This document shows positions 33,112-48,900 of a stretch of 64,000 nucleotides of DNA, one piece after another. The position numbers and the translations under genes are program-made. This DNA is from Streptococcus sanguinis. GTDB taxonomy: Bacteria; Bacillota; Bacilli; Lactobacillales; Streptococcaceae. Numbering within the stretch: the first letter of the stretch is position 1; each line of letters starts with the position of its first letter. The stretch covers positions 1,171,541 to 1,235,540 of the forward strand of contig NZ_CDMW01000001.1 of assembly GCF_001078705.1 (NCBI RefSeq), in the 5' to 3' direction. Under the pieces are notes generated by a model. It saw only the letters and a list, made by a program, of their open reading frames with translations, made no database searches and was not told where the DNA came from.

Positions 33112-33250
33112 AGATATAGTTTACCAGATTTTGACAAGATATAAAACTAATTGCTAGATTTTACCTTTGCCTTCAAGAAACTAAAAACATTTCTCACTCT
33201 CTCCTGAATATGCTAAAATAGACTTATATGAAATGAAAAAAGGAGCATTT

Positions 33251-34474
33251 ATGAAATATTCTAATCTTTTAGAGCGTTTCTTGACTTATGTCAAGGTCAA
33301 TACGCGCTCAGACGAGACATCTTCTACTACACCCAGCACCCAGAGTCAGGTGGATTTTGCTAATAATGTCCTCATCCCTGAAATGAAGCGGGTTGGCTTG
33401 GAAAATGTCTACTACCTGCCCAACGGTTTTGCGATTGGAACTCTGCCAGGCAACGACCCTAGCTTTACCCGCAAGATTGGCTTTATTTCTCACATGGATA
33501 CAGCAGACTTCAACGCAGAAAACATCCAGCCGCAGGTCATCGAGAATTATGATGGCGGTGTGATTCCGCTGGGGCAATCCGGCTTTAACTTAGATCCGGC
33601 AGACTTCGCCAGTCTCCATAAATACAAGGGCCAAACCTTAATTACGACTGATGGAACAACTCTTTTGGGAGCAGATGACAAGTCAGGTATTGCTGAAATC
33701 ATGACTGCTATTGAATATCTGTCTGCCCATCCAGAAATCAAGCACGGAGAAATCCGAGTGGGCTTTGGTCCAGATGAGGAAATCGGTATCGGGGCTGATA
33801 AGTTTGACGCTGAAGACTTTGATGTGGACTTTGCCTACACAGTAGACGGCGGACCTTTAGGCGAGCTCCAGTACGAAACCTTTAGCGCTGCTGGAGCAGA
33901 ACTGACCTTCCAAGGCCGCAATGTCCATCCGGGAACTGCTAAAGACCAGATGGTCAATGCTCTCCAGCTGGCTATTGATTTCCACAACCAGCTGCCAGAA
34001 GCCGATCGGCCAGAGAAGACCGAGGGCTACCAAGGCTTCTACCACCTGATGAACCTGACCGGTACTGTCGAAGAAGCTCATGCTAGCTACATTGTTCGTG
34101 ACTTTGAGACAGAGGCTTTTGAAAATCGCAAAGCTGCTATGCAGGCCATTGCTGAAAAGATGAACCAAGAGCTAGGCAGCGAGCGCGTTATCCTGACTCT
34201 CAAGGACCAGTATTACAACATGAAGCAGGTCATTGAAAAGGACATGACACCTATCCATATCGCCAAAGCAGTCATGGAAAGTCTGGACATCCAGCCTATT
34301 ATCGAGCCTATCCGTGGCGGAACTGATGGCTCTAAAATTTCCTTTATGGGCATCCCGACACCTAACCTCTTTGCCGGCGGCGAAAACATGCATGGCCGCT
34401 TCGAATATGTCAGCCTAGAAACCATGGAACGCGCTGTCGATACCATCATCGGCATTGTTTCCTATCAAGAGTAA
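33251..34474 (+). CDS. pepT: Peptidase T (tripeptide aminopeptidase)
   Basis: 407 residues, the usual length. An M20-family di-zinc peptidase: [11 protein letters not shown] (first His), [20 protein letters not shown] (bridging Asp), [16 protein letters not shown] (catalytic Glu), [12 protein letters not shown], and [16 protein letters not shown]. It removes the N-terminal residue from tripeptides in the cytoplasm. ATG at 33251 follows AAAAAAGGAGC. It is a single-gene transcript bounded by a terminator and stands at the left border of the immunity array. Confidence 0.96.
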
Positions 34475-34519: not shown

Positions 34520-35164
34520 TCACTCTGGCAATTCTACTTTCAAACTCATATCTGTGTTCTGTAATGTCTTCTGTACAGCTGCTAAAAAGGCTAGTCCATT
34601 ATCCGATGGAGAATACTGTAATGTGATATGGATGACTTTTTTATTAAAGCTATCGCCGTATCGTGCCACATACTGCTTGCTTTCGAGGAAGTAGATATAA
34701 TTGTTAATTTTTTCCTGCAGAATTTCCAGATGGACTGCTTCTATCTCCTCTTGCCAGTCAACTGGATCCACTAGGAGAAGCTCCAAATGATTATCAACTG
34801 TACCAATAGCGTCAAGTTCAGTTGGCTTTAGTTCTGAAGAGATGGCTTTTTGTAAGAGTTCTTCAAATTCTTGATTGGAAAACAACCGTTTAATAGACGA
34901 CGGATTTACTAAAATACGAGTAGGTGAATCCCTAAAATAATTTTGCCTAGCTGCTTCGTTGCTTTCCTTAGTCACCCATTCTCCGGTTTCTAAAAACAGT
35001 TCAACTTCATAAGCATCCTGTTCGGACTTTAAAGCTTTGTCTACTAATTCCTTGCTTACTGGATAACTTACTTCTTTATCTTGAAAACCTCCTGACATCC
35101 AGGACATAGTATAATTTCCGTCTTCTTCAGTTATGATAAATCCATTTGCTTTTATTTGATTCAT
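34520..35164 (-). CDS. Putative immunity protein: modules A + B + DUF6572-like C-terminus
   Basis: 214 residues from the ATG at 35164. Residues about 7-60 form module A (FIITEEDGNYTMSW, then VSYPVSKELVDKALKSEQDA and YEVELFLETGEW). Module B (about 60-105; ILVNPSSIKRLFSNQEFEEL) follows. The last about 100 residues (ELDAIGTVDNHLELLLVDPV onward, ending SLKVELPE) are a DUF6572-like domain, a type common in polymorphic-toxin immunity loci. The same C-terminus, almost letter for letter, ends two other genes in the array (37682 and 41056). No signal peptide, so cytoplasmic. The toxin it might neutralise is not in this window. Confidence 0.72.
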   Translation of the reverse strand: MNQIKANGFIITEEDGNYTMSWMSGGFQDKEVSYPVSKELVDKALKSEQDAYEVELFLETGEWVTKESNEAARQNYFRDSPTRILVNPSSIKRLFSNQEFEELLQKAISSELKPTELDAIGTVDNHLELLLVDPVDWQEEIEAVHLEILQEKINNYIYFLESKQYVARYGDSFNKKVIHITLQYSPSDNGLAFLAAVQKTLQNTDMSLKVELPE

Positions 35165-35228
35165 TTGGTAATACACCTTTTCCCCTTCATATAAGTATGC
35201 CCAATGAAAAATATATCACTGTTTCTAA

Positions 35229-35516
35229 TCAATCGATTTCTGAATCATCTAACAGAATTGGAGTTTCTTTTATCCAAAATTTTGTTTTTATCAAACGATA
35301 AAGTCGATTTATTGCATCACTTTCATTTTTAAATTCATCTCTAATCCAGATATCTTGGCGCTCATTAACCTCATATACTTTATATTGTTTAGACTTCTCA
35401 TCGTAATAGTATCCCAAAGTAAATTGGCCTTCAAATTGTTTATCAAGCGCAATATGAAATTTCCCTATCATATCCCTATGTTTATTAATGAAAATTACTA
35501 GTTCTTGTTTCGTCAT
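35229..35516 (-). CDS. Small hypothetical protein, Imm59-like
   Basis: 95 residues with no signal or membrane segment. The pattern MTKQELVIFINKHRDMIGKF, then QFTLGYYYDEKSKQYKVYEV, an aromatic-acidic strand, and FKNESDAINRLYRLIKTKF is an alpha-beta layout that reminds me of the Imm59-type immunity proteins (a helix, three strands including KxYEVNER, and a helix containing ESDAI). It lies between two array members on the same strand. The family call is weak. Confidence 0.5.
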   Translation of the reverse strand: MTKQELVIFINKHRDMIGKFHIALDKQFEGQFTLGYYYDEKSKQYKVYEVNERQDIWIRDEFKNESDAINRLYRLIKTKFWIKETPILLDDSEID

Positions 35517-35544
35517 TTAAAATTCTCCACAACTCTCACGCTTG

Positions 35545-36099
35545 CTATTGTTCTACTACCTTAGGTGGATTGTAGTATTTTTCCTTGAATTCCTTAAGAA
35601 TCTTCTCTACCTTTTCTTCATCACACTGTCTGTATAATGGACTACGGTCTAATACATTACATAGTCTTTCATAGGTATAAGTACGTTTCTGCTCATCTGA
35701 TAATTTTGAAATACTTTCTATAATATTTCTTACCAACTCATCTGTTTCAATAACAAAGGGAAGGCTTGTATATCTTCTTAAACGACTGCCTTGCATAGAA
35801 ATATAATCTGTTACCTTATCTAATTTGACTAGGTCAACCGATAAGCTAAAATCTTTCAAGATTTCAAAAGTTCTTCTCGCTATATCCCTATCACCTTCTG
35901 CATACAAAGGATATAAGCAATACTCCATCAATACGCCAATATCTGTGCTCTCCACTTCATAAGAATCTCGTTGCCGAAAACAATATTTAGCTTCCGTCCC
36001 TAGAAAAACTTCAGCTTCTTTCCCTTCTTTCATTATTTCACGATAGTCTTTTACAAAATTTTGATAATTTTCTTTATTTTTCAATTTATATGTCTTCAT
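35545..36099 (-). CDS. Array protein of unknown family (paralogue of the N-terminal part of the gene at 37682)
   Basis: 184 residues, probably all helical: MKTYKLKNKENYQNFVKDYR, EAEVFLGTEAKYCFRQRDSY, LMEYCLYPLYAEGDRDIARR. About 40 percent of its residues match the N-terminal half of the protein at 37682 by eye (RDSY, EYxLYPxYxEGDxDIxxRTFxILKD are shared). That second protein is fused to the DUF6572-like tail, while this one stands alone. It is cytoplasmic and probably an immunity protein by context. It is followed by a spacer that is almost identical to the one upstream of 38690. Confidence 0.65.
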   Translation of the reverse strand: MKTYKLKNKENYQNFVKDYREIMKEGKEAEVFLGTEAKYCFRQRDSYEVESTDIGVLMEYCLYPLYAEGDRDIARRTFEILKDFSLSVDLVKLDKVTDYISMQGSRLRRYTSLPFVIETDELVRNIIESISKLSDEQKRTYTYERLCNVLDRSPLYRQCDEEKVEKILKEFKEKYYNPPKVVEQ

Positions 36100-36228
36100 T
36101 TATATACTCCATTGATTAATTCTGAAAATTTCCAAACTTGGCTGATTTTTCAGCCTGATAGAACATATTTGTCGGAATGTAAAATCATATCAAAGAAGAT
36201 TTCTCAAAAGATATTTTTATCCGACTTT
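36100..36228. repeat. Conserved spacer repeat, copy 1
   Basis: About 129 bases between the genes at 35545 and 36229. It is nearly identical to 38561-38689 (shared AACATATTTGTCGGAATGTA and AAGAAGATTTCTCAAAAGAT). It is part of the duplicated block and is more alike between copies than the adjoining genes at 35545 and 37682. Confidence 0.85.
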
Positions 36229-37107
36229 TTAAATTTTGGCTAGTATCTGCTGCAAAGTATCAGGTGAAATCGGGTCAACAAGAACATATTTGGCATCCAG
36301 CATATAGATGCCTTCAGTCAATGACTCCAAGTACTGACGATAAGGAACTTCAGCTAGTTTTTCCCCATTGGCTGTCATAACAAATAGTCGTGCAACTGCA
36401 ACCTTACTTCCTCGGTACTGTTGCAAATATTGAGGTTCTAGCTCTGGATGAGATGGTAAGATTGTTCGTCCTTCACTATTTAGATAGTTGACAGGAATGA
36501 TGATATCCTCACCATCCTGCTCTACTTTAAAAACTTGCTGCTCAGAGTAATAAGCATTCATCTGTTGGGTAAAGCGCAAACGCTGGTCATAGCTATTCAA
36601 AAGTTGTTCGTCCGGAACATGGATGATCTGCCCTAGGTAGAGTTCATTGATGTAAATGGGACGTTTCACTCCCATAATTTCCACGATGGGATGGACTTTT
36701 ACTTCCTTGGTCAATTCTGAAAGAGCTGATAAGAAAGTATCCGTGAAATGGAAATCAAGAATGGATTCTTTATCATACTCCACGCCATCGTGTTCGCAAA
36801 CATTTACATCTAAGAGAATGAGCAAGGATTTCAAGAATAACAAAGCGCCAGTCCAATCAGAAACAGTCGCCAAATCTGGAACAGATACTTGATAAACTTG
36901 AGCATCAAAGGATAAACGGAAACCTAAACTAGACTTCTCTTTGACTCCAAACTGGACCGAATGGAAATCTGAAATAAGAGAGTCTGCAGAGGGTTTTAAG
37001 CCCGCATCCTTAGCGGAAACGCTGTAACATTCAAAAGTTTCAGCTTGAAGCACCTCACCAATCCTTAGTGATTGGTTGCTTTTTATTGTAAAATTAACTG
37101 ATTTCAT
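36229..37107 (-). CDS. Array protein, possibly DUF4299-like, intact copy
   Basis: 292 residues, no signal or membrane segment. It opens MKSVNFTIKSNQSLRIGEVL and contains ECYSVSAKDAGLKPSADSLI, GVKRPIYINELYLGQIIHVP and YRGSKVAVARLFVMTANGEK. I associate the pattern with the streptococcal DUF4299 proteins, with low certainty. A second copy at 38690-39426 is nearly identical but has lost 142 bases and is broken. It overlaps the gene at 37104 by four bases (ATGA), so the two are coupled. Function unknown; because its sequence is kept while neighbours vary, it may be a shared adaptor rather than a toxin-specific protein (inference). Confidence 0.7.
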   Translation of the reverse strand: MKSVNFTIKSNQSLRIGEVLQAETFECYSVSAKDAGLKPSADSLISDFHSVQFGVKEKSSLGFRLSFDAQVYQVSVPDLATVSDWTGALLFLKSLLILLDVNVCEHDGVEYDKESILDFHFTDTFLSALSELTKEVKVHPIVEIMGVKRPIYINELYLGQIIHVPDEQLLNSYDQRLRFTQQMNAYYSEQQVFKVEQDGEDIIIPVNYLNSEGRTILPSHPELEPQYLQQYRGSKVAVARLFVMTANGEKLAEVPYRQYLESLTEGIYMLDAKYVLVDPISPDTLQQILAKI

Positions 37108-37571
37108 ATTTTTCTCCTTCGGTCTACTGGCAAATCCTTTCTACGACGTAGAATCGTTACTTCGCTGACAGGGATTTTTCCTGATGCATACATGGTCTGG
37201 CCATATTTCTCATCCAATAATTCCGCATCATCAGCTAAATTGTTTTCAATTAGAAATTCTTTATCAAAAACCAGGAGTCGCACATAAGAATCGGGTGCTG
37301 TAAAATCATCATCCCCATGCTTGTGACCAGCAATTGTAAATTCATGTTCTTTATACAAAACACGATCATAAACCGAATACCTCTGACTAACCTCACTATA
37401 AGAAATAAGCTTCCCATATACCCCTTCTTCGACTTCATCTTCAAAATTACTATAGGGAACGTAGCCTTCTTCCAACATCGCTGGATCTTCTGAAAGAAGA
37501 ATATAGTCATTTACATAATTCACAAAATTAGAGTATACTTTGTTTTGGTAAACTAGAAATTCTTTACGCAT
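37104..37571 (-). CDS. Array protein of unknown family (paralogue of the broken gene at 39453)
   Basis: 155 residues. No known family is recognised. The second half (VYDRVLYKEHEFTIAGHKHG, VRLLVFDKEFLIENNLADDA, then EVTILRRRKDLPV) parallels the frameshifted gene at 39453 (IDHIWFNEQKWDIF, SWVTIVSDDIQFL, FSLIRTRKNLPI), so both belong to one family. The ATGA overlap with the gene at 36229 shows translational coupling. It is predicted cytoplasmic, with a beta-rich C-terminal half. Confidence 0.65.
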   Translation of the reverse strand: MRKEFLVYQNKVYSNFVNYVNDYILLSEDPAMLEEGYVPYSNFEDEVEEGVYGKLISYSEVSQRYSVYDRVLYKEHEFTIAGHKHGDDDFTAPDSYVRLLVFDKEFLIENNLADDAELLDEKYGQTMYASGKIPVSEVTILRRRKDLPVDRRRKI

Positions 37572-37681
37572 ACTAACCCTCCATATATTCCATTATACCA
37601 CACAAAAATTTATTGACAGAATGATGTACAAAATGAATAAAAAAAGAAGACAAATGCCTCCTCTATATTTCGCTAGTTTTT

Positions 37682-38560
37682 TCACTCCGGCAATTCTACC
37701 TTCAAACTCATATCCGTATTCTGCAATGTCTTCTGAGCAGCTGCTAGAAATGCTAATCCATTGTCAGAGGGAGAATACTGGAATGTGATATGGATGACAG
37801 TTTTATCAAAGCTATCGCCGTATCGTGCCACATACTGCTTGCTTTCGAGGAAGTAGATATAGTTGTTGAGTTTTTCTTGAAGTTTCAAGAGATGCTCTTC
37901 TTCTAATGACTCTATCCATTTGTTTTCATCAATCAATAACAACTCAAGATGGTCTTCTGAAACACCCATCGCATCTATACTTGTAACATCTAATACAATT
38001 GGCCATACTTCTGCAACTGATTTAATTTTTCTTCTATTCTTATTTTCCTCTTTCTTTTGCTCATTAACAATATATTCTACTTTGTCTTTATCACAGTTTT
38101 TGAAAAGCTCCATAGAATCAATTAAAATACAAATATTACGGTAATAATCAACCTTTTTCTCATTAGGAAGATTATAAATACTTTCAAGAACTATAGGTAC
38201 TATGTTCTCCACATCAACGATAAAAGGTAAAGTACCATATTCTTCCAGTAAATCTTCTTGTTTTTTTATAAATGATACAACTTGATATAAATGTATAATA
38301 TCCTGACTAGAAGCTAAATCCTTTAAAATATTAAAAGTTCGATCTGGAATATCAAAATCTCCCTCTACATAAATTGGATAAAGGCTGTATTCTATCAAAA
38401 TATGGGTATCCGTAATATCTTGATAATATGAATCGCGGTGACCAATTCTATACTCGGGATCAATACCTAAGAAAGCATCTACTTCTCTGTGATTTTCAAT
38501 GGCTTTTTTATACCTCGTAATATCCCACTCAGTATCTGTTTTTAGTCTATATGTCTGCAT
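37682..38560 (-). CDS. Fusion immunity-like protein: unknown helical domain + DUF6572-like C-terminus
   Basis: 292 residues. Residues 1-170 resemble the stand-alone protein at 35545 (RDSYYQDITDTHILIEYSLY, VEGDFDIPDRTFNILKDL). Residues about 190-292 are the DUF6572-like domain (SIDAMGVSEDHLELLLIDE onward), ending exactly as the genes at 34520 and 41056 do (QNTDMSLKVELPE). The junction is a lysine/glutamate-rich linker. It therefore combines two modules that lie in separate genes in the other copy of the block. Cytoplasmic; toxin partner not seen. Confidence 0.72.
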   Translation of the reverse strand: MQTYRLKTDTEWDITRYKKAIENHREVDAFLGIDPEYRIGHRDSYYQDITDTHILIEYSLYPIYVEGDFDIPDRTFNILKDLASSQDIIHLYQVVSFIKKQEDLLEEYGTLPFIVDVENIVPIVLESIYNLPNEKKVDYYRNICILIDSMELFKNCDKDKVEYIVNEQKKEENKNRRKIKSVAEVWPIVLDVTSIDAMGVSEDHLELLLIDENKWIESLEEEHLLKLQEKLNNYIYFLESKQYVARYGDSFDKTVIHITFQYSPSDNGLAFLAAAQKTLQNTDMSLKVELPE

Positions 38561-38689
38561 TTATTTACTCCATTGATTTATTCTAAAAATTCCCAAACTT
38601 GTCTGATTTTTCAGGCTGATAGAACATATTTGTCGGAATGTAAAATCATATCAAAGAAGATTTCTCAAAAGATATTTTTATACGACTTT
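38561..38689. repeat. Conserved spacer repeat, copy 2
   Basis: Nearly identical to 36100-36228, differing at only a handful of bases over about 129. It lies between the fusion gene at 37682 and the broken DUF4299-like gene. Confidence 0.85.
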
Positions 38690-39426
38690 TTAAATTCTGG
38701 CTAGTATCTGCTGTAAAGTTTCAGGAGAAATTGGATCCACAAGAACATATTTGGCATCCAGCATATAGATGCCTTCAGTCAATGACTCCAAGTACTGACG
38801 ATAAGGAACTTCGGCTAGTTTTTCCCCATCGGCTGTCATGATAAATAGTCGTGCAACTGCAACCTTACTTCCTCGGTACTGTTGCAAATATTGAGGTTCT
38901 AGCTCTGGATGAGATGGTAAGATTGTTCGTCCGGAACATGGATAATCTGCCCTAGGTAGAGTTCATTGATGTAAATGGGACGTTTCACTCCCATAATTTC
39001 CACGATGGGATGAACTTTTACTTCCTTAGTCAATTCTGAAAGAGCTGATAAGAAAATATCTGTGAAATGAAATTCTAGAATAGAATCTTTATCATACGCC
39101 ACACCATCATGTTCACATACAGTTACATCTAAGAAAATGAGCAAGGTTTTCAAGAACATCAAGGCCCCAGTCCAGTCAGAAGCTGTTGCCAAATCTGGAA
39201 CAGATACCTGATAAACTTGACCATCAAAAGATAGACGGAACCCTAAACTAGACTTCTCTTTGACCTCAAACTGAACAGAATGGAAATCCGAAATAAGAGA
39301 GTCTGCAGATGGCTTTAATCCTGCATCCTTAGCGGAAACGCTGTAACATTCAAAAAGTTCTGCTTGGAGCACCTCACCAATTCTTAGTGATTGGTTGCTT
39401 TTTATTGTAAAATTAACTGATTTCAT
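38690..39426 (-). pseudogene. Second copy of the DUF4299-like gene, disrupted by a 142-bp deletion
   Basis: The N-terminal 167 residues match the intact gene at 36229 almost exactly up to IHVPDEQ, then the frame shifts to SYHLIQS and stops. The last 65 codons survive in another frame (38690-38887). In the intact gene TTGTTCGTCC occurs twice, at 36462-36471 and 36604-36613, exactly 142 bases apart; in this copy only one remains, at 38923-38932. The two loci are 879 and 737 bases long, a difference of exactly 142. The deletion is thus a clean recombination between the direct repeats. Confidence 0.92.
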
Positions 39427-39452
39427 AATAAACTACTTTCTTACTATCTTGA

Positions 39453-39883
39453 CTATATAGGGAGATTTTTTCGAGTTCGAATTAGAGAAAACTTTTCTGC
39501 CTCGATTGGTAAAGAACAATAATACAAATGTCCATACCTACTTTCAACTAAATTCTCCTTCTTCCATAGCCCATTTCTTTTTAAAAATTGTATATCATCA
39601 GAAACGATCGTTACCCATGAATTAGGCTTATCTAAATTATCATCACTTCGTTGAAAAATATCCCATTTTTGTTCATTAAACCAAATATGATCTATAATTT
39701 TATATTTTTTTCAACCTGTTTTTCTGTCAAGTATTTTCTATATTGTTTCAACTCTGAATCAAATAATTTATAGCCATTATTCTCTGATAAAGGATTATAA
39801 GAAATCAAATAATATCCTGTACTATCACGATCAAAGTATTGGTGTTCAATTCCATCAACCACTATGTATAATTTATCCATCAT
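39453..39883 (-). pseudogene. Array gene broken by a frameshift at a poly-A run
   Basis: From 39883 the frame encodes about 60 residues (MMDKLYIVVDGIEHQYFDRD onward) and stops after EKQVEKNIKL at 39692. One extra A in the A-run of seven near 39710 would continue into YKIIDHIWFNEQKWDIFQRS and on to KNLPI with a stop at 39453-39455, giving a protein of about 143 residues. The rebuilt protein is a relative of the intact one at 37104. As with the hydrolase at 16478, the break is a single-base change in an adenine run. Confidence 0.8.
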
Positions 39884-39916
39884 CCCTCCATGTATTCAAT
39901 ATATAACAGTCATTTT

Positions 39917-40339
39917 CTACTTTATTGGTGATACATAATCATCTGGAAGTTTGCCCATTGATTCTATCCATTGTTGTTCGGCTTGGGGAATAAGTATTTC
40001 AAGTTCTTTATTACTAAAAAGCAACTGATTTTTGCGGTTGGAAATCAGCACAATTGGCTTTTCTCTAGCTCTATCTTTTCTTATTTCGTTCTTTTCTTCT
40101 TCCGTCAGTGGCCAACAATTGTTCCTTGCTCTATAAGATACTTCTCGTATCGTTCTCTCCCCACTCTCCAGTAAGGTAAATAGCTCATTTGGTAATTCAT
40201 AAACAACACGCTGAGGGGCAATTCCTCCCTCCTCAGTAACGTAATAAAGATGATTACCATCTCTCCAGATATGCTGACCATAACCTTTTACCTCTTCAAA
40301 TTGGATAACATCTTCCCATTGTAGTCTTGTTGGTTTCAT
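39917..40339 (-). CDS. Putative immunity protein: modules A + B (tandem copy 1)
   Basis: 140 residues, close paralogue of the next gene (both begin MKPT(R/K)LQWEDVIQFEEVKGYG). Module A: HLYYVTEEGGIAPQRVVYEL, then PNELFTLLESGERTIREV and NNCWP. Module B: KPIVLISNRKNQLLFSNKEL, then IPQAEQQW. It ends GKLPDDYVSPIK. It lacks the DUF6572-like tail found in the two related genes. Cytoplasmic, acidic. The family name is not known to me; the immunity role is by context. Confidence 0.7.
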   Translation of the reverse strand: MKPTRLQWEDVIQFEEVKGYGQHIWRDGNHLYYVTEEGGIAPQRVVYELPNELFTLLESGERTIREVSYRARNNCWPLTEEEKNEIRKDRAREKPIVLISNRKNQLLFSNKELEILIPQAEQQWIESMGKLPDDYVSPIK

Positions 40340-40350
40340 TTATACATTCC

Positions 40351-40773
40351 TTACTTAAGTGGTGATACATAATCATCTGGAAGTTTGCCTCTCCAGTCAA
40401 TCCACATTTGCTCAGCAATTGGAATTAATTTTTCAAGTTCTTCCTGAGTAAATAATTCCCAACTCTTAGGACTAGCTATTAAAGGAGTTAAGCCTTTTAA
40501 TACAAATTGTTTCTCACTAGCTTTCTTTTCTTCTTCCGTCGGTGGCCAACAATCGTTCTTTACTCTATAAGACACTTCTCGTATCGTTCTCTCTCCACTC
40601 TCTAGTAAGGTAAATAATTCTTGTGGTAGTTCATAGACAACTAACCAAGAAGCTACGGTTCCCTCTTCTGAAACTAAATAATACTTGTTATCATTTCTCC
40701 AGATGGATTTTCCGTATCCTTTTACCTCTTCAAATTGGATAACATCTTCCCATTGTAGTTTTGTTGGTTTCAT
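40351..40773 (-). CDS. Putative immunity protein: modules A + B (tandem copy 2)
   Basis: 140 residues from the ATG at 40773, the position aligned with its neighbour; an upstream in-frame extension shows no family similarity. Shared blocks with the gene at 39917: LQWEDVIQFEEVKGYGKSIW, ELFTLLESGERTIREVSYR, GKLPDDYVSPLK. The stretch after the CWPPTEEEK motif differs most (LKGLTPLIASPKSWELFTQE), suggesting that a specificity segment varies between tandem copies. Spacing to the next gene is 11 bases, so they are probably cotranscribed. Confidence 0.72.
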   Translation of the reverse strand: MKPTKLQWEDVIQFEEVKGYGKSIWRNDNKYYLVSEEGTVASWLVVYELPQELFTLLESGERTIREVSYRVKNDCWPPTEEEKKASEKQFVLKGLTPLIASPKSWELFTQEELEKLIPIAEQMWIDWRGKLPDDYVSPLK

Positions 40774-41010
40774 TTGTATTCTCCTAGTGCAAGTTCTACT
40801 CTCATCATTAAATATCATAAAAATCAGCCTTCTATTTCTCTTCCTCAATAGGCTAGACCGTCTTTTATCCATTCTATAGTTTCTAAATCTAAATTAAAAC
40901 AGAAATCTGTTTGACGTTTCCGACACATCAAAAAGTATTAATCGGAAATTTTACCTTTGCTTATTATAACATATTGAGACTTAGGTGGTGCTGAAAAAAC
41001 AAAGTGCTCT

Positions 41011-41038
41011 AAAAAAAGAGAAGATGATTATCTCCTCT
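41011..41038 (-). terminator. Terminator inside the immunity array
   Basis: AGAGAAGAT (41017-41025) pairs with ATCTCCTCT (41030-41038) with one wobble; seven Ts follow on the minus strand. It lies 17 bases past the stop at 41056 and separates the upstream genes (41-46 kb) from those at 34.5-40.8 kb. Confidence 0.8.
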
Positions 41039-41055
41039 ATATTTCGCTAGTTTTT

Positions 41056-41715
41056 TCACTCCGGTAATTCTACCTTCAAACTCATATCTGTATTCTGTAA
41101 TGTCTTCTGTACAGCTGCTAGGAAAGCTAAAACATTGTCTGATGGTGAATACTGGAATGTAATATGGATGACTGTTTTATCAAAGCTATCGCCGTATCGT
41201 GCCACATACTGCTTGCTTTCGAGGAAGTAGATATAGTTGTTAATTTTTTCCTGCAAAATTTCCAGATGGACTGCTTCTATTTCTTCCTCCCAGCCAACTG
41301 AATCCACCAGAAGAAGCTCTAAATGACTATCAACTATACCAATAGCGTCAAGCTCGCTAGGTTCCAGTTCTGAAACAATGGCTTGGGTGACACTTTGTGT
41401 AAATTCCTCTGCTGTGAAAAGACGACGGCTATTTTTAGGATTCTTCAAAATAAAGGAAGGATGATCTTCGATGAAGAGCTTACCAGATTCTTCTCGTGTA
41501 TACTGTTTTTTAGATTCCCAAAAACCATATTGCGCATAAGTCATCAACTCTTTGCCAGTATGTTCTCCCGACATGTAACTATCTGCAGCTTCTTTGGGAA
41601 TTTCTCTAATCACTTCTGGGCAGGTAATATTAAAAGTTGGATAACGCAAGAAATACTTATCACCATCTTGACAAATTTCCAACATATCTTTTTGACTTAC
41701 ATAAATTGATTCCAT
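41056..41715 (-). CDS. Putative immunity protein: modules A + B + DUF6572-like C-terminus
   Basis: 219 residues. Module A (LEICQDGDKYFLRYPTFNIT, then REIPKEAADSYMSGEHTGKE and AQYGFWE), module B (PSFILKNPKNSRRLFTAEEF) and the DUF6572-like tail (ELDAIGIVDSHLELLLVD to SLKVELPE). The modular order equals that of the gene at 34520, but module A is quite different while the tail is nearly identical. The 3' 200 bases and the following 30 bases of spacer also match the end of 37682, pointing to recent gene conversion or duplication. Cytoplasmic. Confidence 0.72.
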   Translation of the reverse strand: MESIYVSQKDMLEICQDGDKYFLRYPTFNITCPEVIREIPKEAADSYMSGEHTGKELMTYAQYGFWESKKQYTREESGKLFIEDHPSFILKNPKNSRRLFTAEEFTQSVTQAIVSELEPSELDAIGIVDSHLELLLVDSVGWEEEIEAVHLEILQEKINNYIYFLESKQYVARYGDSFDKTVIHITFQYSPSDNVLAFLAAVQKTLQNTDMSLKVELPE

Positions 41716-41834
41716 TCTTATCTCCTTTGTCTTTTACCAAATATCTACTGATTATTTATTCCCTAATGCAAAAGAACTAACTGTTGATACTTCACCCAAT
41801 TTTTTTGGCTGTCCTTATGGTGTAATCCACTTTA

Positions 41835-42263
41835 CTATAAAGGCCAGTGCCCTGTTTCAGCATAAATCATAACTTCATATGCTCCTCTAAAGGATTCAAA
41901 TGCTTTATCCATCAGTTCTTTAGTAATAGGATAGCGAACTTCTGGACCTATTGCACCGCCAATTTCTTTAAAGAAGCTAATTTCGTAATAGTCGTCTGTC
42001 TCATATACAATAAATCCATCGCCTCGATGTACAATTGTATCCGATTGATTATAATCTTCTAGCTCATCTTTCTCTGGCCAACGATGATTTTCACAATAAA
42101 ACATTACTTCTAAAGAATCTTTTTCTGATTTTGAAACACATTCTGCTAATTCCTGGCTAATGGAAAAGTTAAGCACTTCTTTCCCTCTACTCCACAGAAT
42201 CTGATAATCATTATTGTTTTTTAATATCGTACAATTTTTGTATTGTTGAATTTCTGTTATCAT
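41835..42263 (-). CDS. Putative immunity protein made of two module-A repeats
   Basis: 142 residues consisting of two copies of module A. Copy 1 (about 9-62): ILKNNNDYQILWSRG, ISQELAECVSKSEKDSLEV, CENHRWP. Copy 2 (about 80-141): FIVYETDDYYEISFFKE, VRYPITKELMDKAFESFRGA, YEVMIYAETGHWP. The second is close to the N-terminal module of the gene at 34520. No tail domain. This is direct evidence that module A is a mobile or duplicating unit. Cytoplasmic. Confidence 0.7.
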   Translation of the reverse strand: MITEIQQYKNCTILKNNNDYQILWSRGKEVLNFSISQELAECVSKSEKDSLEVMFYCENHRWPEKDELEDYNQSDTIVHRGDGFIVYETDDYYEISFFKEIGGAIGPEVRYPITKELMDKAFESFRGAYEVMIYAETGHWPL

Positions 42264-42310
42264 ATAAACACCTATTCAAATACCTTTATTATTGGTTAAA
42301 TTAAAATACT

Positions 42311-43057
42311 CTAAACTTCAGCCCTTTCCGCAACTAATTCATAAGGAAAATACGGAATCTCTTCCAATTCCTTGTAATTCAAACCTTTAATTTTGCAAAT
42401 AGCCCCTGATTCAAAAGACCAATAACCCACATGATTTTTTACATTCTGCTTATGCAAATCATGCCATCCTGCATCTCTGCTCCCTTGATACCATTTCTTA
42501 GTCAAATATTCTTGCAACAGTTTAAGTGCTTGTTCAGAATTCTCTTCTTCAATAATTTTCCTAGTAAAGCCATAGGGTCTTGGAAAATTATAATTAATCC
42601 GAATCTTCCAAGCTGGATTACGATATTGAATCAGGTAGTCAATCAAATAATCCTCTGGATCATCTTTTTTGACCAAGTCTACCAGCTGTTTAAAAATCTC
42701 CTCATCAATCTCTAACAGAATACCAATAGAAAGCGCCCATACCATTTGTTCATATCCCCATTCCTTATGCCATACCGGAACTAAACAAGCCACAAATGAG
42801 ATGTATTCCTCTTTAAAAACTAACAAAGAAGCCCCACTAGAATAAGTTGCAAATAAAATATCTCTCTGATAAGACAATATAGTAGCTAAAGTTGAATGAT
42901 ACACGTCTATTGTTGGCTTCTTATAGTTTTCGATTCCATTATCTAAATCAATTTGAAGTTTTATTAATTTCTCTTGAAAATACTGCAATGCCTCTTTATT
43001 TGACATTAGGCCATCTTTATAATTCTTTTCTGTACTTAAAGTATCTCGTATTGCCAT
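42311..43057 (-). CDS. PoNi-like immunity protein (DUF1910/DUF1911)
   Basis: 248 residues, a helical protein with the DUF1911 signature WYQGSRDAGWHDLHKQN followed by HVGYWSFESGAICKIKGL and PYFPYELVA. The N-terminal DUF1910-like half contains LSYQRDILFATYSSGASLLV and FVACLVPVWHKEWGYEQM. PoNi proteins neutralise PoNe-type DNase toxins delivered by type VI or other secretion systems. No PoNe toxin is seen here. It is a paralogue of the gene at 44808, with which it shares the block KKDDPEDYLIDYLIQ and the following 40 residues. Confidence 0.8.
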   Translation of the reverse strand: MAIRDTLSTEKNYKDGLMSNKEALQYFQEKLIKLQIDLDNGIENYKKPTIDVYHSTLATILSYQRDILFATYSSGASLLVFKEEYISFVACLVPVWHKEWGYEQMVWALSIGILLEIDEEIFKQLVDLVKKDDPEDYLIDYLIQYRNPAWKIRINYNFPRPYGFTRKIIEEENSEQALKLLQEYLTKKWYQGSRDAGWHDLHKQNVKNHVGYWSFESGAICKIKGLNYKELEEIPYFPYELVAERAEV

Positions 43058-43097
43058 TTTATATCTCCTTTATTAAGGCCAAACAACCTTTATCTCT

Positions 43098-43574
43098 CTA
43101 ACCTTCCTCAGTTGGAAGATGATCTAGATTTATTGGTTTAAGATTTAAACGTTTCAATACTAATTCATAGAAAAAATTATTATTTAACCTATCAGGTGAA
43201 CTTACAGTAAAGTTATTCATAATTAATAACGGAATAAATTCTGAACCAATTGTATTATAACCCGTCAAATACTCTAACCCATAATTTAAGTTTTTCGGAT
43301 TTTCAGTACCAACTGTCCAGTAGGATCCTTTGGCTTGTAAGCGAAAAACCTCACCAAGATAAACCCAACTATTAAAGAAATCGTCAATATTTTCAGGATC
43401 ATTTTTGACATCATTCTCTCGAACGAATTGCGCCAAATACTTCAAGCTTTCTAAACTCATATCTAGATGATAACCTTGCTTATTAGCTTTTTGCTTTATT
43501 GCATCCAAGGTATCATCAATGTAAAACATAAATTCCTCAAAATTTTCCTGAATTTTTTCTTTATTTAATACCAT
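43098..43574 (-). CDS. Hypothetical array protein
   Basis: 158 residues, cytoplasmic, alpha-beta mix. Notable blocks: SLESLKYLAQFVRENDVKND, FFNSWVYLGEVFRLQAKGSY and WTVGTENPKNLNYGLEYL. The YLGEVFRLQAKGSYW stretch recalls proteins of the Imm and DUF3806 type, in which a GE-(x)n-GG/W strand pair is conserved, but I cannot place it. It lies in line with the two PoNi-like genes and is probably an immunity gene by context. Confidence 0.55.
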   Translation of the reverse strand: MVLNKEKIQENFEEFMFYIDDTLDAIKQKANKQGYHLDMSLESLKYLAQFVRENDVKNDPENIDDFFNSWVYLGEVFRLQAKGSYWTVGTENPKNLNYGLEYLTGYNTIGSEFIPLLIMNNFTVSSPDRLNNNFFYELVLKRLNLKPINLDHLPTEEG

Positions 43575-43670
43575 GTGGCCTACCTTTTTTACTTTCGATT
43601 AATTATGAGATTGCGAATAAATTTATCAAAAAGAATGTTATTTGAAGTAGCAAAATCGCTCCAATCATTC

Positions 43671-44102
43671 TTATCTCCTCTGAAAGTCTTCCAGCAAGGG
43701 AAGTAGATCTGCCCTCCAAGGAAAAATTTTTGTCAACTCTAAACAAGAAGGTACACCAAAGCGTTCATCTACATATGCTCCAGCGTTTAAAAGAACTTTG
43801 TATAAAGGAAGTAACTCCTCAGATGAAGCTTTTAATGTCGCAATTGCATATGATAGAGGCGTTCCACCGTGAGAATCCTTCAAATTCACATCTGCTCCAT
43901 TCTTTATAAGTAATTCTGCTTCCTGTAAGAGGTATTGGGGATCAGCAGACCAATTTGCTTTTGCAGATCCTAATAGTAAATGAAGGGCAGTGCTCTTAGT
44001 TTTTGATTGATGGTTCACATCAATTCCTTGATGAATCAGATGTTCTGCGATTTGGATTCTATCAAAAAGATCACTAGATTCCGTAAATAGCAACTCTAAC
44101 AT
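43671..44102 (-). CDS. Ankyrin-repeat protein
   Basis: 143 residues with two clear and one partial ankyrin repeat: HLIHQGIDVNHQSKTKSTAL and HLLLGSAKAN, then AELLIKNGADVNLKDSHGG and TPLSYAIATLK, then YKVLLNAGAYVDE. The first repeat starts close to the N-terminus. No ribosome site is visible before the ATG at 44102, and the frame is open further upstream, so the gene may be 5'-truncated or begin at another codon. Ankyrin proteins occur as immunity or toxin-neutralising partners in polymorphic-toxin loci; that role here is by context. Confidence 0.68.
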   Translation of the reverse strand: MLELLFTESSDLFDRIQIAEHLIHQGIDVNHQSKTKSTALHLLLGSAKANWSADPQYLLQEAELLIKNGADVNLKDSHGGTPLSYAIATLKASSEELLPLYKVLLNAGAYVDERFGVPSCLELTKIFPWRADLLPLLEDFQRR

Positions 44103-44113
44103 GGAAAGATTAA

Positions 44114-44303
44114 TTATTTTTCTCTCAAAATACTTTCTAAGCCGACAAACACTATATCTCTCAAGACTTCGTTATAATTACTATAATCTTTTTTCGTTTT
44201 AATTGCATCAAATCCAGTCTTAATTTGTCCATCTAAAATTAAAGTTAAGCCTTCGACTTTCTCATCTGAGCCTTCCTTACCAAATGTCTCGTTTAAAATA
44301 ATT
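44114..44303 (-). pseudogene. 5'-truncated gene fragment, unknown helical family
   Basis: About 60 codons in one open frame with no start codon: NETFGKEGSDEKVEGLTLIL, then DGQIKTGFDAIKTKKDYSNY and NEVLRDIVFVGLESILREK, stop at 44114-44116. It follows the stop of the gene at 44306 directly and in the same frame, so its own 5' end has been lost. The DxxIKTGFDAIKxKxDYSNYxEVLRD pattern resembles small regulatory proteins from mobile elements (ribbon-helix-helix-like), which is uncertain. Confidence 0.55.
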
Positions 44304-44305
44304 AA

Positions 44306-44818
44306 TTATCTGACGTTATATTTACCTTCCTTTACTATCCAATAGCGTTCGTTTTCAGGAATCAACTTTTCAAAATTTTGACGGTAAGCTTGCCAACCAT
44401 TCGGCATATAAGATTCGTAACGAGTGAATCCCCAATAATTAGAGTAAAATATTTCACAATCAAAATCTATCAATAAATCTGGTAAAAGAAGTTCATTTTC
44501 TAATTTGAATTCTGAGGGCATAGTTTCACAAACAGATTGTGAATACAAGATTTCTTCTTTTAATTGACTAACAGAAACTTTCTCATACTCGCCAGTATAC
44601 ATAGCAAGATAATCTTTCAAATTGGCTTTAGATACCACACGAATATTATGTTGAACCTCTGGCAAAAACGAAAAGTCAAAATTCCACCCAGCATCTTCAT
44701 AGGATTTTATTAATTTATTGACATCCATAATCCACATATCTTTGGAACAAATATACCAATTAAAAGTTTTATTTACAATTACTGCTACAATATTTACTTC
44801 TGGTTTTTCAATTATCAT
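44306..44818 (-). CDS. Hypothetical array protein
   Basis: 170 residues. N-terminal strand-rich part IIEKPEVNIVAVIVNKTFNW, middle YEDAGWNFDFSFLPEV, and C-terminal block LLIDFDCEIFYSNYWGFTRY and ESYMPNGW. The DFD-(x)n-YE-(x)-YxPxGW end occurs in several small immunity-type proteins I have seen, but no name can be given. It overlaps the upstream PoNi-like gene by 11 bases, so translation is coupled and the two probably act together or are coselected. Confidence 0.6.
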   Translation of the reverse strand: MIIEKPEVNIVAVIVNKTFNWYICSKDMWIMDVNKLIKSYEDAGWNFDFSFLPEVQHNIRVVSKANLKDYLAMYTGEYEKVSVSQLKEEILYSQSVCETMPSEFKLENELLLPDLLIDFDCEIFYSNYWGFTRYESYMPNGWQAYRQNFEKLIPENERYWIVKEGKYNVR

Positions 44819-45695
44819 TATCTAATACCTTCTTAATCATCTCGTCATCAGCTCTGGAGATATGATAATGAGTGTTACTATTATCATTACTGGAGCTTTC
44901 CATTTGAACACCTTCTTCAACAAAAGCTAAAGAATTAGACATGGAAGATGATGCTGAGCTTGATGTTCCTTCATTTACCTCAGCAACCAAATCATAAGGG
45001 AAATACGGGACACCTTCCAATTCCTTGTAATCCAAGCCCTTGATTTTGCAAATAGCGCCTGATTCAAAGGACCAATAGCCATAATAATTATCAATATTCC
45101 GCTTATGCAAATCATACCAGCCTTCATCTCTGCTTCCCTGATACCATTTTTTCTCCAGATATTCTTTCAGAAGAGCTACGGCATTTTCAGAATTTTCTTC
45201 CTCAATGATCTTTCGAGTAAAGCCATAGGGTCTTGGAAAATTATAGTTTATCCGAATCTTCCAATCTGGATGACGTGATTGAATCAAGTAATCAATCAAA
45301 TAGTCCTCCGGATCATCCTTTTTGACTAAATCCACCAATTTATCAAAAGTCACTCCGTCAATCTCTAAAAGAATCCCAATGGAAAGGGCACAGATCATTT
45401 CATCATATCCTGAATTACTAAACCAAACAGGGAGAAGGCTATCAACAAATTTAAGGTACTCTTCTCTGAATTTCTCAATAGAGTAGCCTGCAGTGTAGGT
45501 GGCTATCATATTCTCTTTTTGGCAAACAGAATGATCAAGTTGTACTGATCTGATAACTTTTTCTATCGGACGCTTGTAGGGATTTATACCTTGCTTTAAT
45601 TTTTCCAATTCTTCAACCAACTCATCAATTGATAAGTTGTTAATTTTAATTAATTCATTAATTTTTTCTTCTATAAATATATTATCTCTTTTCAC
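44808..45695 (-). CDS. PoNi-like immunity protein with serine-rich tail
   Basis: 295 residues. The DUF1910/DUF1911 core is clear: NMIATYTAGYSIEKFREEYL near 62, CALSIGILLEIDGVTFDKLV, WYQGSRDEGWYDLHKRN and YYGYWSFESGAICKIKGLDY, ending PYFPYDLVAE near residue 240. About 55 residues of Ser/Asn-rich tail follow (EGTSSSASSSMSNSL, then SRADDEMIKKVLDND), not present in the paralogue at 42311. The tail could be a linker to a lost domain or a recognition tail. First gene of the array's upstream transcript. Presumed to neutralise a DNase toxin (inference from the family). Confidence 0.8.
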   Translation of the reverse strand: MKRDNIFIEEKINELIKINNLSIDELVEELEKLKQGINPYKRPIEKVIRSVQLDHSVCQKENMIATYTAGYSIEKFREEYLKFVDSLLPVWFSNSGYDEMICALSIGILLEIDGVTFDKLVDLVKKDDPEDYLIDYLIQSRHPDWKIRINYNFPRPYGFTRKIIEEENSENAVALLKEYLEKKWYQGSRDEGWYDLHKRNIDNYYGYWSFESGAICKIKGLDYKELEGVPYFPYDLVAEVNEGTSSSASSSMSNSLAFVEEGVQMESSSNDNSNTHYHISRADDEMIKKVLDNDN

Positions 45696-45763: not shown

Positions 45764-45844
45764 TTATTGATTATTATTCTGATTTTCTTCCTCACGTTGT
45801 TTATGAAGGTCCTCAAGAAATTCCTTCTGAACTTGCTTTAACAT
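45764..45844 (-). CDS. Possible 26-residue small protein
   Basis: ATG at 45844 follows GGAGAACAGTAGT, a correctly placed ribosome site, and encodes MLKQVQKEFLEDLHKQREEE plus NQNNNQ, a single charged helix. It lies between the pht terminator and the array. It may be a real small gene or the remnant of a larger helical protein. The rest of 45696-45982 is AT-rich and has no other gene. Confidence 0.3.
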   Translation of the reverse strand: MLKQVQKEFLEDLHKQREEENQNNNQ

Positions 45845-45908
45845 ACTACTGTTCTCCGTTTATTTTAACACAATATCAATCGAATAAGTATAGGGGTGTG
45901 AAAATCAA

Positions 45909-45982: not shown

Positions 45983-48900
45983 TTAACTAACCTGAACAAT
46001 TTTCAGTTGGCCGTCAGCTCCTGTAAAGCTGATGCTTCTGCTTGCTGGATTGTAGTTGAAAGTCTCTGGACTGGCACCGTAGATCTGAGAAAGTTCCCGC
46101 AATTTCTGGTTAAACGTTTCCTCTGTCATACCAAAACTGGCTGCTAAGCTCGATTGACCAGCTGGATTTGCAGTTGTCGAAGCTTCTGCTGGCTTATCAG
46201 ATTGGTTTTGAACTGTTTCTCCAGTAGCAGATTCGGAAGGTTGTTTGCCATTTTGCGCCGTTTCAGGAGTACTGCTGCTGGCTGGCTGACCAGAAGTAGG
46301 TTGTTGAGCCGGTGCTTTGAGGAAGCCTTTTTGCACCGCATAGGCATCTGCTGCTTGGCGCTCGGCTTCTGACAAGTCTTTCTTGTAAATATAATGCTCG
46401 TGGTCCAGATGGGCTACCCGATAGCCTTGCTCGTCCGCTCCGACCATATCCTGCAGATTAAAGCGATAGCCATCATCGTCCCTATGCTGAGAATCAGACT
46501 CGTTTGTTCCCTCAGGATGGACGAGTGACTGCTGGAAGGCCAGGATTTCCTTGAGTAGCTCTTTCTTGTCAGTAGCTCTCTGTCCAAGCTTATCAAAAAG
46601 CTGGTCCAGCTGCTGGTATTGCTGCTCACTTCCTTGATTCTTTTCCAAATACTGATGGATAGACATGAGCAAATTATAAAGCTGTTGGTAAACTTCCTGA
46701 TTTTCCGTATTAGACGGCTCTTCCTTTTGCCCAGCAATGGCCCTGCTCATCTGATCCAAAAGCTTCTGACTTGCTGCCAGCAGAGCTTGCTTATCTGAGC
46801 TGCTGCTCTTTAACTCCTTGCCTAGTTCTAAGATTTTAGCTGCATAGTCTGCCCGGCTGTTTTGGTCCTTTACTTCTCCAAGCAGTTCCTGCGCTTTTCC
46901 AAGGAAGACAAGGGCTTGAGCGCTCTTTTCGCTATCATCTGTTGTTCCAAAATCGTCATAAATGCCCCTCAAAAAGTCATAAATCATGGCCTTATAGGTC
47001 GGCTGATCAGGCTCACCCTGATCCAGGTCTGTCTTTTCAGAGGACGCAGAAGGCTGACCGCTAGCAAGGGCTGCTGCAATCTCTTTCTTAGTCTGATAGA
47101 GAGCAGGGAAAAGCTGCTGGAGATTGGTCGCTTCTATAAAGGCTTGAGACTTATAGAGAGTCAAAGTCAGCCCTGCCGCTTTTCTGCGCAGCTCAGGACT
47201 CAAGCGCCCATCCTCTAATGCTTGGTAGAAATAACGAATATAATCAACTGCTGTGACGCCTGTCCGATCATGATAATCTTCTAAAGCAGATAGTAATTGT
47301 CCTAGCTCTGCCATTTCAGCTTGATTCTGGCCAGCATAAGCATTTTGCAGACGCTGCAGCAAGTCAGCTTTCTTCAGCCCATAGCTATCCGTATCTAGTC
47401 GATTCATTCTCTCCAAAAGTCCTTGATAACTCTTGTCTAGCTCGGTCTCTTGGATTGGCTTGACCGTCTGATCCACATGGATAAACTGCTTATCAAAGTT
47501 ATCCAGACTGTTCAGATAACCAGTTGTTGAGTTGCTAGGCAGCTTCTTCATGGTTTCCACAAACTGCCCCAAAGCCAGCTCAATCCGCCGCTGCATAAGA
47601 GGATCATCGGCATAGAGACGCTGACTGTCCGCTTTTAGGCTTTCTACTTTTTGCAAAATAGCGGCCTCATCATAATCACCCTGCTCATACTTAGATTGAA
47701 TCTGAGGCAGACGATTTTTCAAGGCTTCTGCTGCGCCCTTGGACTGGATCTTGATATAGTGATTGTGGTCGCCATGAGGAATGACAAACTGACCATCTTC
47801 CACCTGCAGACTGTAAGGCGAAAGACCTGAGCGCAAGGCTGTTGTGTAGAGCTCATTCATGAAGTCCAGCTCTGCATTGCCCGTTACCAGCGGAATGCGA
47901 ACATGCTCCTTGCGAACAGCATAGGGGTGGATATGAGTCGGATCGTAGGCTTGATCAGGATTATTAAAGACAAAGAAACCGTTTGAGATGCGAACCGCCT
48001 CCTTGGGAACCCCATAGGTTTGGCAGATATAAGCAATCTTTTCCTCATCGCTGGCATCGCGTGAATAGCGCTCAGCGTCATTGACTGCTGCTGATGGTTT
48101 TGCTGGTTGCTGCTTGGCCAAGACTTGCTCCGCTGCTTGAATCTGTTCAGCAGTCAAGTCTTTCTTGTAAAAGTAATGAGCATGATCTCCATGCGATACC
48201 ATGTAGCCTTGATCGTCCTTGCCAATGACAGACCCCGCATGAAAACCATGGTCGTGATCAGGCTGTGACGGTAACTGAGGCTTCAAAGCTTGTAGAGGAT
48301 CTCCTAGTGGCTCATAAGTATATCCAATAGGAATCAAGCGGGCAATCTTCGCTTCCAAGTCTGATAGCTTGTCATAAGGAATGAAATGATGATGGTCTCC
48401 GTGGGGGATAACGATCCCATTTTCTGTCCGACGGCTGATTTTCAGCGGGTCAAACACGACACCGTCCCCTTCATGATAGCGCTGAGACTGAGGCAGGGCA
48501 TAGAGTTGCTGCAGCAGACTTGGCAAGGATGGCTGAGATGGTTGAGACGGCTGAAGCGGATTGGGCGAACTTGGCTGAGTAACCGCTACGCCAGGACTTA
48601 GCTGCTCAATCTTTGAATGATTTGGTAGCTGTGGAGACGGATTTGAGACTACTGGTCCACCCTGATTGATAGCACTATTCTGATTCCATGTGTTGGAAGA
48701 TACTATCGGCCTACCGTAGTTAGGCGGATTCACCCTTCCGCCAGCCCGCCTGCTATTCCAGTAGCTCTGAGCCGCAGCCAATTCTGCCGGCGACAGGTCG
48801 CTCTTGGGAATGTAGTGAAAATGCCCGCCATGCGGCACGATAAAAGCATCGCCAGTATCCTCGATGACGTCAGAGGGACTGAACGTATAACCATCATCCG

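Follow-up and report, generated by a model that had tools for sequence, protein, structure and literature searches.

What is the function of the row of short genes that lies between pepT and a pht-like gene in this Streptococcus sanguinis genome? The window analyzed here is a stretch of 64,000 nucleotides (G000:C1:1171541-1235540) of a 2.31 Mb genome, and the array in question covers about 11 kb of it (34520-45695). It contains 15 intact open reading frames (ORFs) of 95-295 amino acids (aa), all on the minus strand, and is bounded by pepT (33233-34474) and the pht-like gene (45983-49531), with a pht-pepT gap of 11.5 kb. The array very probably represents a bank of orphan immunity genes against toxins that related streptococci deliver by the type VIIb secretion system (T7SSb; T7SS in general), kept after the toxin genes were lost. 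We favor this reading because homology, remnants of toxin genes (toxin scars), purifying selection and polymorphism of the site agree; orphan immunity against polymorphic toxins, proposed in an initial annotation of the DNA, is thereby supported.

The same annotation had described about 15 intact short genes plus relics on one strand from pepT to pht, including two PoNi-like genes, three DUF6572-like genes and one ankyrin gene. We found 15 intact and at least two broken genes on the minus strand, and the family counts held (Pfam matches for PoNi in 44808-45695 and 42311-43057, and for DUF6572 in 34520-35176, 37682-38560 and 41056-41715; ankyrin families above cut-off in 43671-44102). The 17 gene spans, two broken ones among them, are lettered A to Q and fill a fraction of 0.86 of 34520-45695. 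From the pht side to the pepT side the features are (L and G numbers denote loci and genomes):

45797..45853, minus: relic that corresponds to the last 18-19 aa of a membrane protein encoded next to essC in T7SS loci (tblastn, 100% with genes of L128 and L137 over this length)
44808..45695, minus: A, PoNi-like immunity protein, 295 aa (PoNi_C 2.1e-29, PoNi_N 1.6e-14); its C-terminal tail resembles the C-terminus of an essC-adjacent 216-aa T7SS protein (41% over 29 aa, E=4.5e-6)
44306..44818, minus: B, 170 aa, no Pfam family; array relatives elsewhere are weak (24-26%, one 52%)
44117..44305, minus: relic, once a small gene of the array type (63 aa match a 69-aa ORF in L042 at 95%)
43671..44102, minus: C, ankyrin-repeat protein, 143 aa (Ank_5, Ank_2, Ank and Ank_4 above cut-off)
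43098..43574, minus: D, 158 aa, recurrent in arrays (90-97% homologues in L042, L045, L050 and L137; DUF6278 below cut-off only, 3.6e-4)
42311..43057, minus: E, PoNi-like immunity protein, 248 aa (PoNi_C 4.3e-27, PoNi_N 6.7e-21)
42266..42294, minus: toxin scar 5' of F (in-register match to the 3' end of a 640-aa effector gene)
41835..42263, minus: F, two copies of a shared N-domain, 142 aa (hhalign F1-F2 98.7%, Q-F2 100%)
41056..41715, minus: G, shared N-domain and DUF6572, 219 aa, YSPSD present (DUF6572 1.1e-28)
41017..41038, minus: terminator-like hairpin 3' of G (hairpin scan)
40351..40773, minus: H, shared N-domain protein, 140 aa (profile comparison)
39917..40339, minus: I, 140 aa, H paralogue with the shared N-domain (profile comparison, direct repeats)
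39456..39883, minus: J, broken 143-aa immunity-like gene in two frames (94% over 94 aa to the 143-aa gene of L047; 97% over 63 aa to L042 and L145)
38690..39426, minus: K, broken DUF4299 copy with a 142-bp internal deletion (681/737 remaining positions identical to the intact copy)
38561..38593, minus: toxin scar 5' of L, last 10 codons of an NGA-type effector (10/10 residues identical)
37682..38560, minus: L, IFS and DUF6572 fusion, 292 aa (IFS 3.8e-58, 196.7 bits; DUF6572 2.1e-28)
37643..37664, minus: terminator-like hairpin 3' of L (hairpin scan)
37574..37600, minus: toxin scar 5' of M (in-register match to the end of a 732-aa effector gene)
37104..37571, minus: M, 155 aa, 4-bp overlap with N (90% homologues in L049 and L068)
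36229..37107, minus: N, intact DUF4299 gene, 292 aa (DUF4299 1.1e-35)
36105..36132, minus: toxin scar 5' of O (8/8 residues identical)
35545..36099, minus: O, IFS protein, 184 aa (IFS 2.6e-70, 236.2 bits)
35229..35516, minus: P, 95 aa, similar to the N-terminal part of a 192-aa DUF6572 immunity protein (42% over 95 aa, E=1.3e-22)
34520..35176, minus: Q, shared N-domain and DUF6572, 218 aa, YSPSD present (DUF6572 5.4e-29)

A Pfam scan of all 17 array ORFs confirmed PoNi, DUF6572 and DUF4299 and added IFS (PF16718, 'Immunity factor for SPN'), which scored above its cut-off of 30 bits in L and O. IFS is an antidote domain to an NADase, and these two genes, one of them fused to DUF6572, are the best clue to immunity and had been overlooked by the initial annotation. 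For L, the IFS assignment is backed by the IFS crystal structures 3pnt, 4kt6 and 3qb2. PoNi_N and PoNi_C were both above cut-off in A and E. In G, L and Q, DUF6572 is above cut-off behind an immunity part and carries a Y-x-x-x-D pattern that may correspond to the published residues. As had been claimed, no array gene resembles a toxin: none of the 17 ORFs reached the cut-off of a toxin family, a few chance names appeared below cut-off (e.g., Crinkler 0.23, Egg_lysin 0.12), and no ORF is large, the longest being 295 aa.

The N-termini of Q, G, H and I and both halves of F were found to belong to one domain family that has no Pfam entry. Profile probabilities were 93-100% for Q-G, Q-H, Q-I, Q-F1, Q-F2, G-H, G-I, H-I and F1-F2, weaker for direct G/H/I-to-F pairs (14-75%), and at most 10.4% in all 30 control comparisons. 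A predicted model of Q (mean pLDDT 84.8) gave no Foldseek match in PDB at E<=0.001, while the DUF4299 model (mean pLDDT 44) was too low for use. NCBIfam, run on 10 of the 17 array proteins, gave nothing useful beyond generic ankyrin matches.

Neighborhoods of 20 kb were mapped around the IFS matches and part of the DUF6572 matches. The T7SS loci of relatives have an EssC-type FtsK/SpoIIIE protein followed by small proteins and then effectors, and homologues of A, F, L, M and Q were found directly 3' of effector genes. An NADase_NGA effector precedes an IFS-DUF6572 gene in L041, L043 and L058; the domain was computed for the effectors of L043 and L058 (3.2e-53 and 1.6e-45), and the L041 effector is 90% identical to that of L043. 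A 733/732-aa effector followed by M and then N is present in L049 and L068. In L047 a 718-aa effector is followed by a J-type 143-aa gene, N and L, a 657-aa effector by a 192-aa protein that joins an N-terminus like P to DUF6572 (this P-containing protein matched Imm59 below cut-off only, 0.017), and a 640-aa effector by an F/Q-type protein, an 85% homologue of F fused to a DUF6572 part. In L044 a Q-type gene (87% to Q) follows a 544-aa effector and an A-type PoNi gene (79% to A) follows a 588-aa effector. The effector before the A homologue matched PDB chain 9waq_B 'VP14465', which we take to be a PoNe toxin, over 39 residues (1.4e-5), whereas a PDB sequence search of the 640-, 718- and 657-aa effectors gave no informative match. 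The effectors carry a PT-TG pre-toxin segment, mostly slightly under its cut-off, and the nearest published kind is MSE-ExT of Streptococcus suis (PMC12558993). Intact toxins beside such genes in related strains had been named by the initial annotation as a finding that would refute orphan immunity. They were indeed found in the T7SS loci of relatives, yet they name the likely cognate toxins, and thus support the immunity reading, while the window genes themselves stand toxin-free.

A tblastn search of the window with toxin tails gave weak matches (lowest E=0.010; none of the 20 x 14 shuffled tails fell under 0.01), and therefore the DNA upstream of each gene was aligned, in register with the start codon, to the 3' ends of cognate toxin genes. 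The controls were 100 mononucleotide shuffles, each scored as the best of ten references. Scores exceeded the shuffle maxima for L (62 against 28), O (55 against 34), M (39 against 27) and F (48 against 30). The NADase partner is not present directly upstream of the window IFS genes; only its last 8-10 codons are. The kept ~30 bp hold purine-rich Shine-Dalgarno-like stretches, and we infer from them that the immunity gene may have its ribosome-binding site within the last codons of the toxin.

Other arrays retain toxin stumps of 45-57 codons. Among 27 IFS-type starts, the two of the window included, seven had an orphan stump of 56-57 codons that begins at the same toxin residue (L040, L041 second copy, L045, L046, L048, L050 and L052), and this common breakpoint suggests that a single truncated cassette spread among arrays. 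Shorter stumps were found at three starts (L042, L054 and L059) and a toxin in place at four (L041 first copy, L043, L053 and L058); L044 had a longer fragment of a broken toxin gene, and in L035, where the contig ends, about 58 residues of the toxin were seen. The remaining 11, the window's two among them, had no stump at the sensitivity of the test. For 10 M-type starts the toxin was in place in two, a stump was present in two (L045 and L054) and neither in six.

Selection was assessed as pairwise ratios of nonsynonymous to synonymous substitution rates (dN/dS) for homologues that share 70% identity or more across 80% or more of the length. The median was 0.10-0.33 for 14 of the 15 intact genes, the value for C coming from one pair only and B having no qualifying homologue; some pairs had high dS (median up to 0.90). 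As yardsticks, pepT gave 0.034, carB 0.022 and pht 0.116. These values bear on a rival explanation, in which former T7SS loci left the array behind as decaying debris whose functionless immunity genes are on their way to being lost. J and K are indeed broken, further relics occur, and G009 retains one broken L only at the site; however, 15 ORFs are intact, dN/dS is well under the value of 1 expected without constraint, and the same families are retained in many species, so that debris is a very unlikely explanation.

Several observations weigh against kept orphan immunity. At least two window genes are broken, and since some dN/dS partners adjoin toxins, the selection signal may be partly ancestral. 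The scars are short (27-33 bp), none was found 5' of P and Q in the in-register test, and the scores for A and J stay under the shuffle maximum (33 against 34 and 28 against 31, respectively). No toxin partner for B, C, D, E, G, H or I was found in the loci examined. In the genome itself the search for cognate toxins covered NADase_NGA and the whole 718-aa protein, and a non-MSE effector with an M/N-type toxin end, or toxins cognate to A, F, P and Q, may still be present.

With respect to the strain's own weapons, no NADase_NGA match was found in its genome. One MSE-like effector was found (match 1367017-1368444, over 1-482 of 718, the carrier only), which lacks an M/N-type toxin end and is succeeded by other genes. 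This 732-aa effector (L062 7325-10444) has an odd neighbor, being followed by a 123-aa ORF and a Tpt1/KptA-type RNA 2'-phosphotransferase (7.8e-40). There are four LXG matches, two of them above cut-off; of the LXG proteins at L036 6558-8456 (own genome, ~8 kb right of the window) and L038 6918-8807, one carries DUF3114 and the other an EndoU nuclease. T7SSb genes are present, with EssB at 2213818-2214882 and the locus L060 5996-17695 corresponding to 2202041-2212738 of the genome, ~1 Mb away from the array. All EssC-type ORFs are truncated (940, 414, 289 and 621 aa, compared to 1471 aa in L068), and for this reason the strain's T7SS may be inactive.

Across a genus sample of 147 genomes, IFS was found in 21 and DUF6572 in 39 (38 of the 39 above cut-off), and 15 of the 39 had no EssB match (G037, one of the 15, has sub-cut-off DUF6572 only). 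DUF6572 is the C-terminal part of T7SS immunity proteins tested in S. suis, where EI1 is reported to neutralize without its DUF6572 tail, and the tail (EIC-CR) to bind EssC D1 and aid export (PMC12558993). The DUF6572 proteins of the array could by this token serve chiefly as adaptors that bind EssC for the export of the strain's own T7SS effectors, and the Y-x-x-x-D pattern is kept in G, L and Q. We consider this highly improbable, as DUF6572 occurs in only 3 of the 15 intact genes, the EssC-type ORFs are all truncated, the 15 genomes above have no EssB match, and a standalone DUF6572 is found behind a pyocin in Pseudomonas.

The tail is strongly constrained. Its median dN/dS was 0.09-0.10, with 0.092 from only 3 pairs where the genome lacks an EssB match; Y-x-x-x-D was present in 20 of 22 rows overall and in 7 of 7 from genomes of this kind. 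A rather doubtful reading is that the tail works in the defender and not in toxin export alone. It would there hold the carrier part common to MSE toxins, or another shared target, and so add a broad-spectrum grip to the specific domain of each orphan protein; strains that have lost the whole T7SS and have immunity genes in its interval would then follow a stable shield-only strategy. The constraint and pattern in genomes without an EssB match and the pyocin-linked DUF6572 are compatible with it, but EI1 neutralization needs no tail in the published S. suis experiments (PMC12558993), and a kept tail is explained more plainly by gene conversion or a recent loss of the T7SS. The Pseudomonas case is L172 8603-10715 of Pseudomonas khorasanensis SWRI153, where a standalone DUF6572 protein (2.1e-30) and then a second related ORF come after an S-type pyocin (PF06958, 5.4e-26); DUF6572 is thus in the immunity position in a Gram-negative.

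One chromosomal interval contains the weapon in some relatives and immunity genes in others. The interval between a 584/311-aa and a 426/113/572-aa gene group holds T7SS genes in G048, G063, G132 and G035, whereas in four S. cristatus-group genomes an array of 12.6-30.3 kb fills it. Immunity-family ORFs, counted as lower bounds, were 12 of 51 in G146 (S. cristatus A53, 30.3 kb), 6 of 24 in G008 (S. cristatus A52, 17.3 kb), 18 of 38 in G102 (24.6 kb, 23.1 kb counted) and 6 of 18 in G027 (Streptococcus sp. Marseille-P6264, 12.6 kb). EsaA, EssB and EssC gave no match at E<=1e-15 in the four intervals. Remnants of the weapon are toxin stumps, to which three of the four genomes add a gene related to the membrane gene next to essC; other ORFs include Imm47, an ADP-ribosylglycohydrolase and a transposase, which in G146 is of IS1595 type. 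No EssB match was found anywhere in the G008 and G027 genomes, and G102 and G146 have a divergent EssB match outside the interval. In S. cristatus S22, EssC and effectors are still encoded next to the 584-aa gene.

Comparison of the pht-pepT locus across strains found its content to differ strongly between close relatives. The pepT flank was examined in every one of the 15 genomes whose pepT shares 96% identity or more (98% between the window and G035), although only 2.8, 4.9 and 7.0 kb of it lie on the contig in G146, G008 and G017. Array genes adjoin pepT in four: G035 (pht-pepT gap 12.3 kb), G047 (9.4 kb, array genes mixed with others), G145 (1.8 kb, A- and G-type genes) and G009 (1.9 kb, one broken L). 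Another four (G132, G048, G046 and G063) share an unrelated 271-aa gene at the site, 94-100% identical, and the other seven have different neighbors and no pht within the stretch seen. Three different sets of array genes occupy the site in S. sanguinis BCC31, KO16 and BCC04, a biased set picked by their DUF6572 gene. In S. sanguinis SK1 (G035) the otherwise orphan array at pht-pepT includes a 415-aa TNT-domain ORF with an Imm63 partner (L042 5151-6792), so the site is able to hold a toxin-immunity pair too; the first ~60 residues of this ORF resemble EssC. The initial annotation had judged the density and modular structure of the array unusual. That it is unusual in kind is not supported, as similar arrays were found in many oral streptococci and orphan-immunity arrays have been published.

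Variable content between relatives, together with a low GC content, would also fit an anti-phage defense island. The GC content of the array is 0.344 compared to 0.439 outside, below that of all 62 overlapping windows of the same size outside the array (range 0.408-0.479). PADLOC, with 10 of the 17 proteins scanned, gave no match at E<=0.01, and matches to immunity families were found instead; an anti-phage island is therefore extremely improbable. Direct repeats connect the 3' ends of G, L and Q, all with DUF6572, at 77% and 90% relative to the reference copy; they also connect N with K (DUF4299, 91-93%), A with E (PoNi, 81%) and H with I (75-81%). Terminator-like hairpins numbered 7, compared to 4.9 expected in shuffles, and a promoter scan (44 found, 46.7 expected) gave no interpretable signal.

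The evolutionary direction and the toxin specificities that follow are inferred. Each unit would originally have been the 3' member of an effector-immunity pair at a T7SS locus. Loss or displacement of the toxin gene would then have left only its final codons, in which the ribosome-binding site for the immunity gene seems to lie, and the immunity gene would have been kept, copied and shuffled into the hypervariable pht-pepT site. IFS and PoNi proteins inhibit their toxins directly, and direct inhibition of incoming toxins is the most likely mechanism for the array as a whole. In the cytoplasm, every protein of the array would neutralize a single incoming toxin, namely an NGA-type NADase in the case of IFS, a PoNe-like nuclease in that of PoNi and other MSE-type toxins in the remaining cases. 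Direct toxin inhibition has been demonstrated for EI proteins (PMC12558993) and TipB (PMC5555719).

Published systems show both likeness and difference. Orphan immunity arrays of the V. cholerae type VI secretion system (T6SS), for which sequential effector displacement was proposed as the origin, likewise consist of rows of immunity genes that pair with effectors in other strains and whose own effectors are lost (PMC5361080). Effector traces 5' of immunity genes, as in such displacement, are present in the window, where 3' scars of toxins are kept. The array differs in being directed against Gram-positive T7SSb toxins and in lying ~1 Mb from the strain's T7SS instead of beside the cluster (PMC5361080); relatives with an array-filled T7SS interval do have the array at the secretion locus, and in four of them the whole T7SS is absent from the interval. 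Tandem T7SSb immunity paralogues (esaG, tsaI and tipC) occur in S. aureus and Streptococcus (PMC9484751) and orphan T7SSb immunity genes in Listeria (PMC10327511). These too are toxin-free and recombine via shared blocks (PMC9484751, PMC10327511), but they are located at T7SS or toxin loci, and esaG, tsaI and tipC form mostly one family each whereas the window array mixes several (PMC9484751). S. suis MSE-ExT/EI pairs share the C-terminal DUF6572 on variable N-terminal immunity parts, NADase toxins and Y-x-x-x-D; there EI is paired with its effector, while the window genes are orphan and have IFS and the unnamed N-domain as N-terminal parts (PMC12558993). A pseudo-T7SS with core genes lost was described in one S. 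aureus strain (PMC11652724).

Acquired interbacterial defense (AID) islands of Bacteroidales hold orphan immunity genes apart from the weapon locus. The array resembles them in its position away from the weapon, but the Pfam scan revealed no recombinase among its 17 ORFs. The concept of orphan immunity is thus already known from Vibrio, Listeria, S. aureus and Bacteroidales; new here are the conserved DUF6572 tails, the off-locus hot spot and the state in which a T7SS is replaced by immunity genes. In the literature searched, DUF6572 turned up in two papers, and titles and abstract openings revealed no paper on this locus or on array-replaced T7SS loci in oral streptococci.

The analysis ties antidote genes to particular toxin genes of neighboring oral streptococci, and makes it testable gene by gene whether orphan immunity genes protect and shape coexistence in the dental biofilm. 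It suggests an interbacterial role of IFS beyond the S. pyogenes NADase, and gives DUF4299 a genomic setting, one gene removed from a T7SS effector. Close relatives with either T7SS or an immunity array in the same chromosomal interval provide a natural experiment.

In L040, L046, L048, L052, L056, L074 and L075, arrays of oral streptococci share a further site, close to the gene of a 268-aa HAD-like hydrolase (33% to 26706-27521 of the window). Other arrays carry Imm47, Imm6, ADP-ribosylglycohydrolase and IS1595-type transposase genes (L045 15306-16103, L048 12939-13496, L050 5928-6920 and L064 4815-5732). L048 8467-10074 and L046 10314-11921 encode a 535-aa protein in which IFS and DUF6572 are joined to a membrane part like the essC-adjacent 216-aa T7SS protein, possibly a membrane-anchored antidote.

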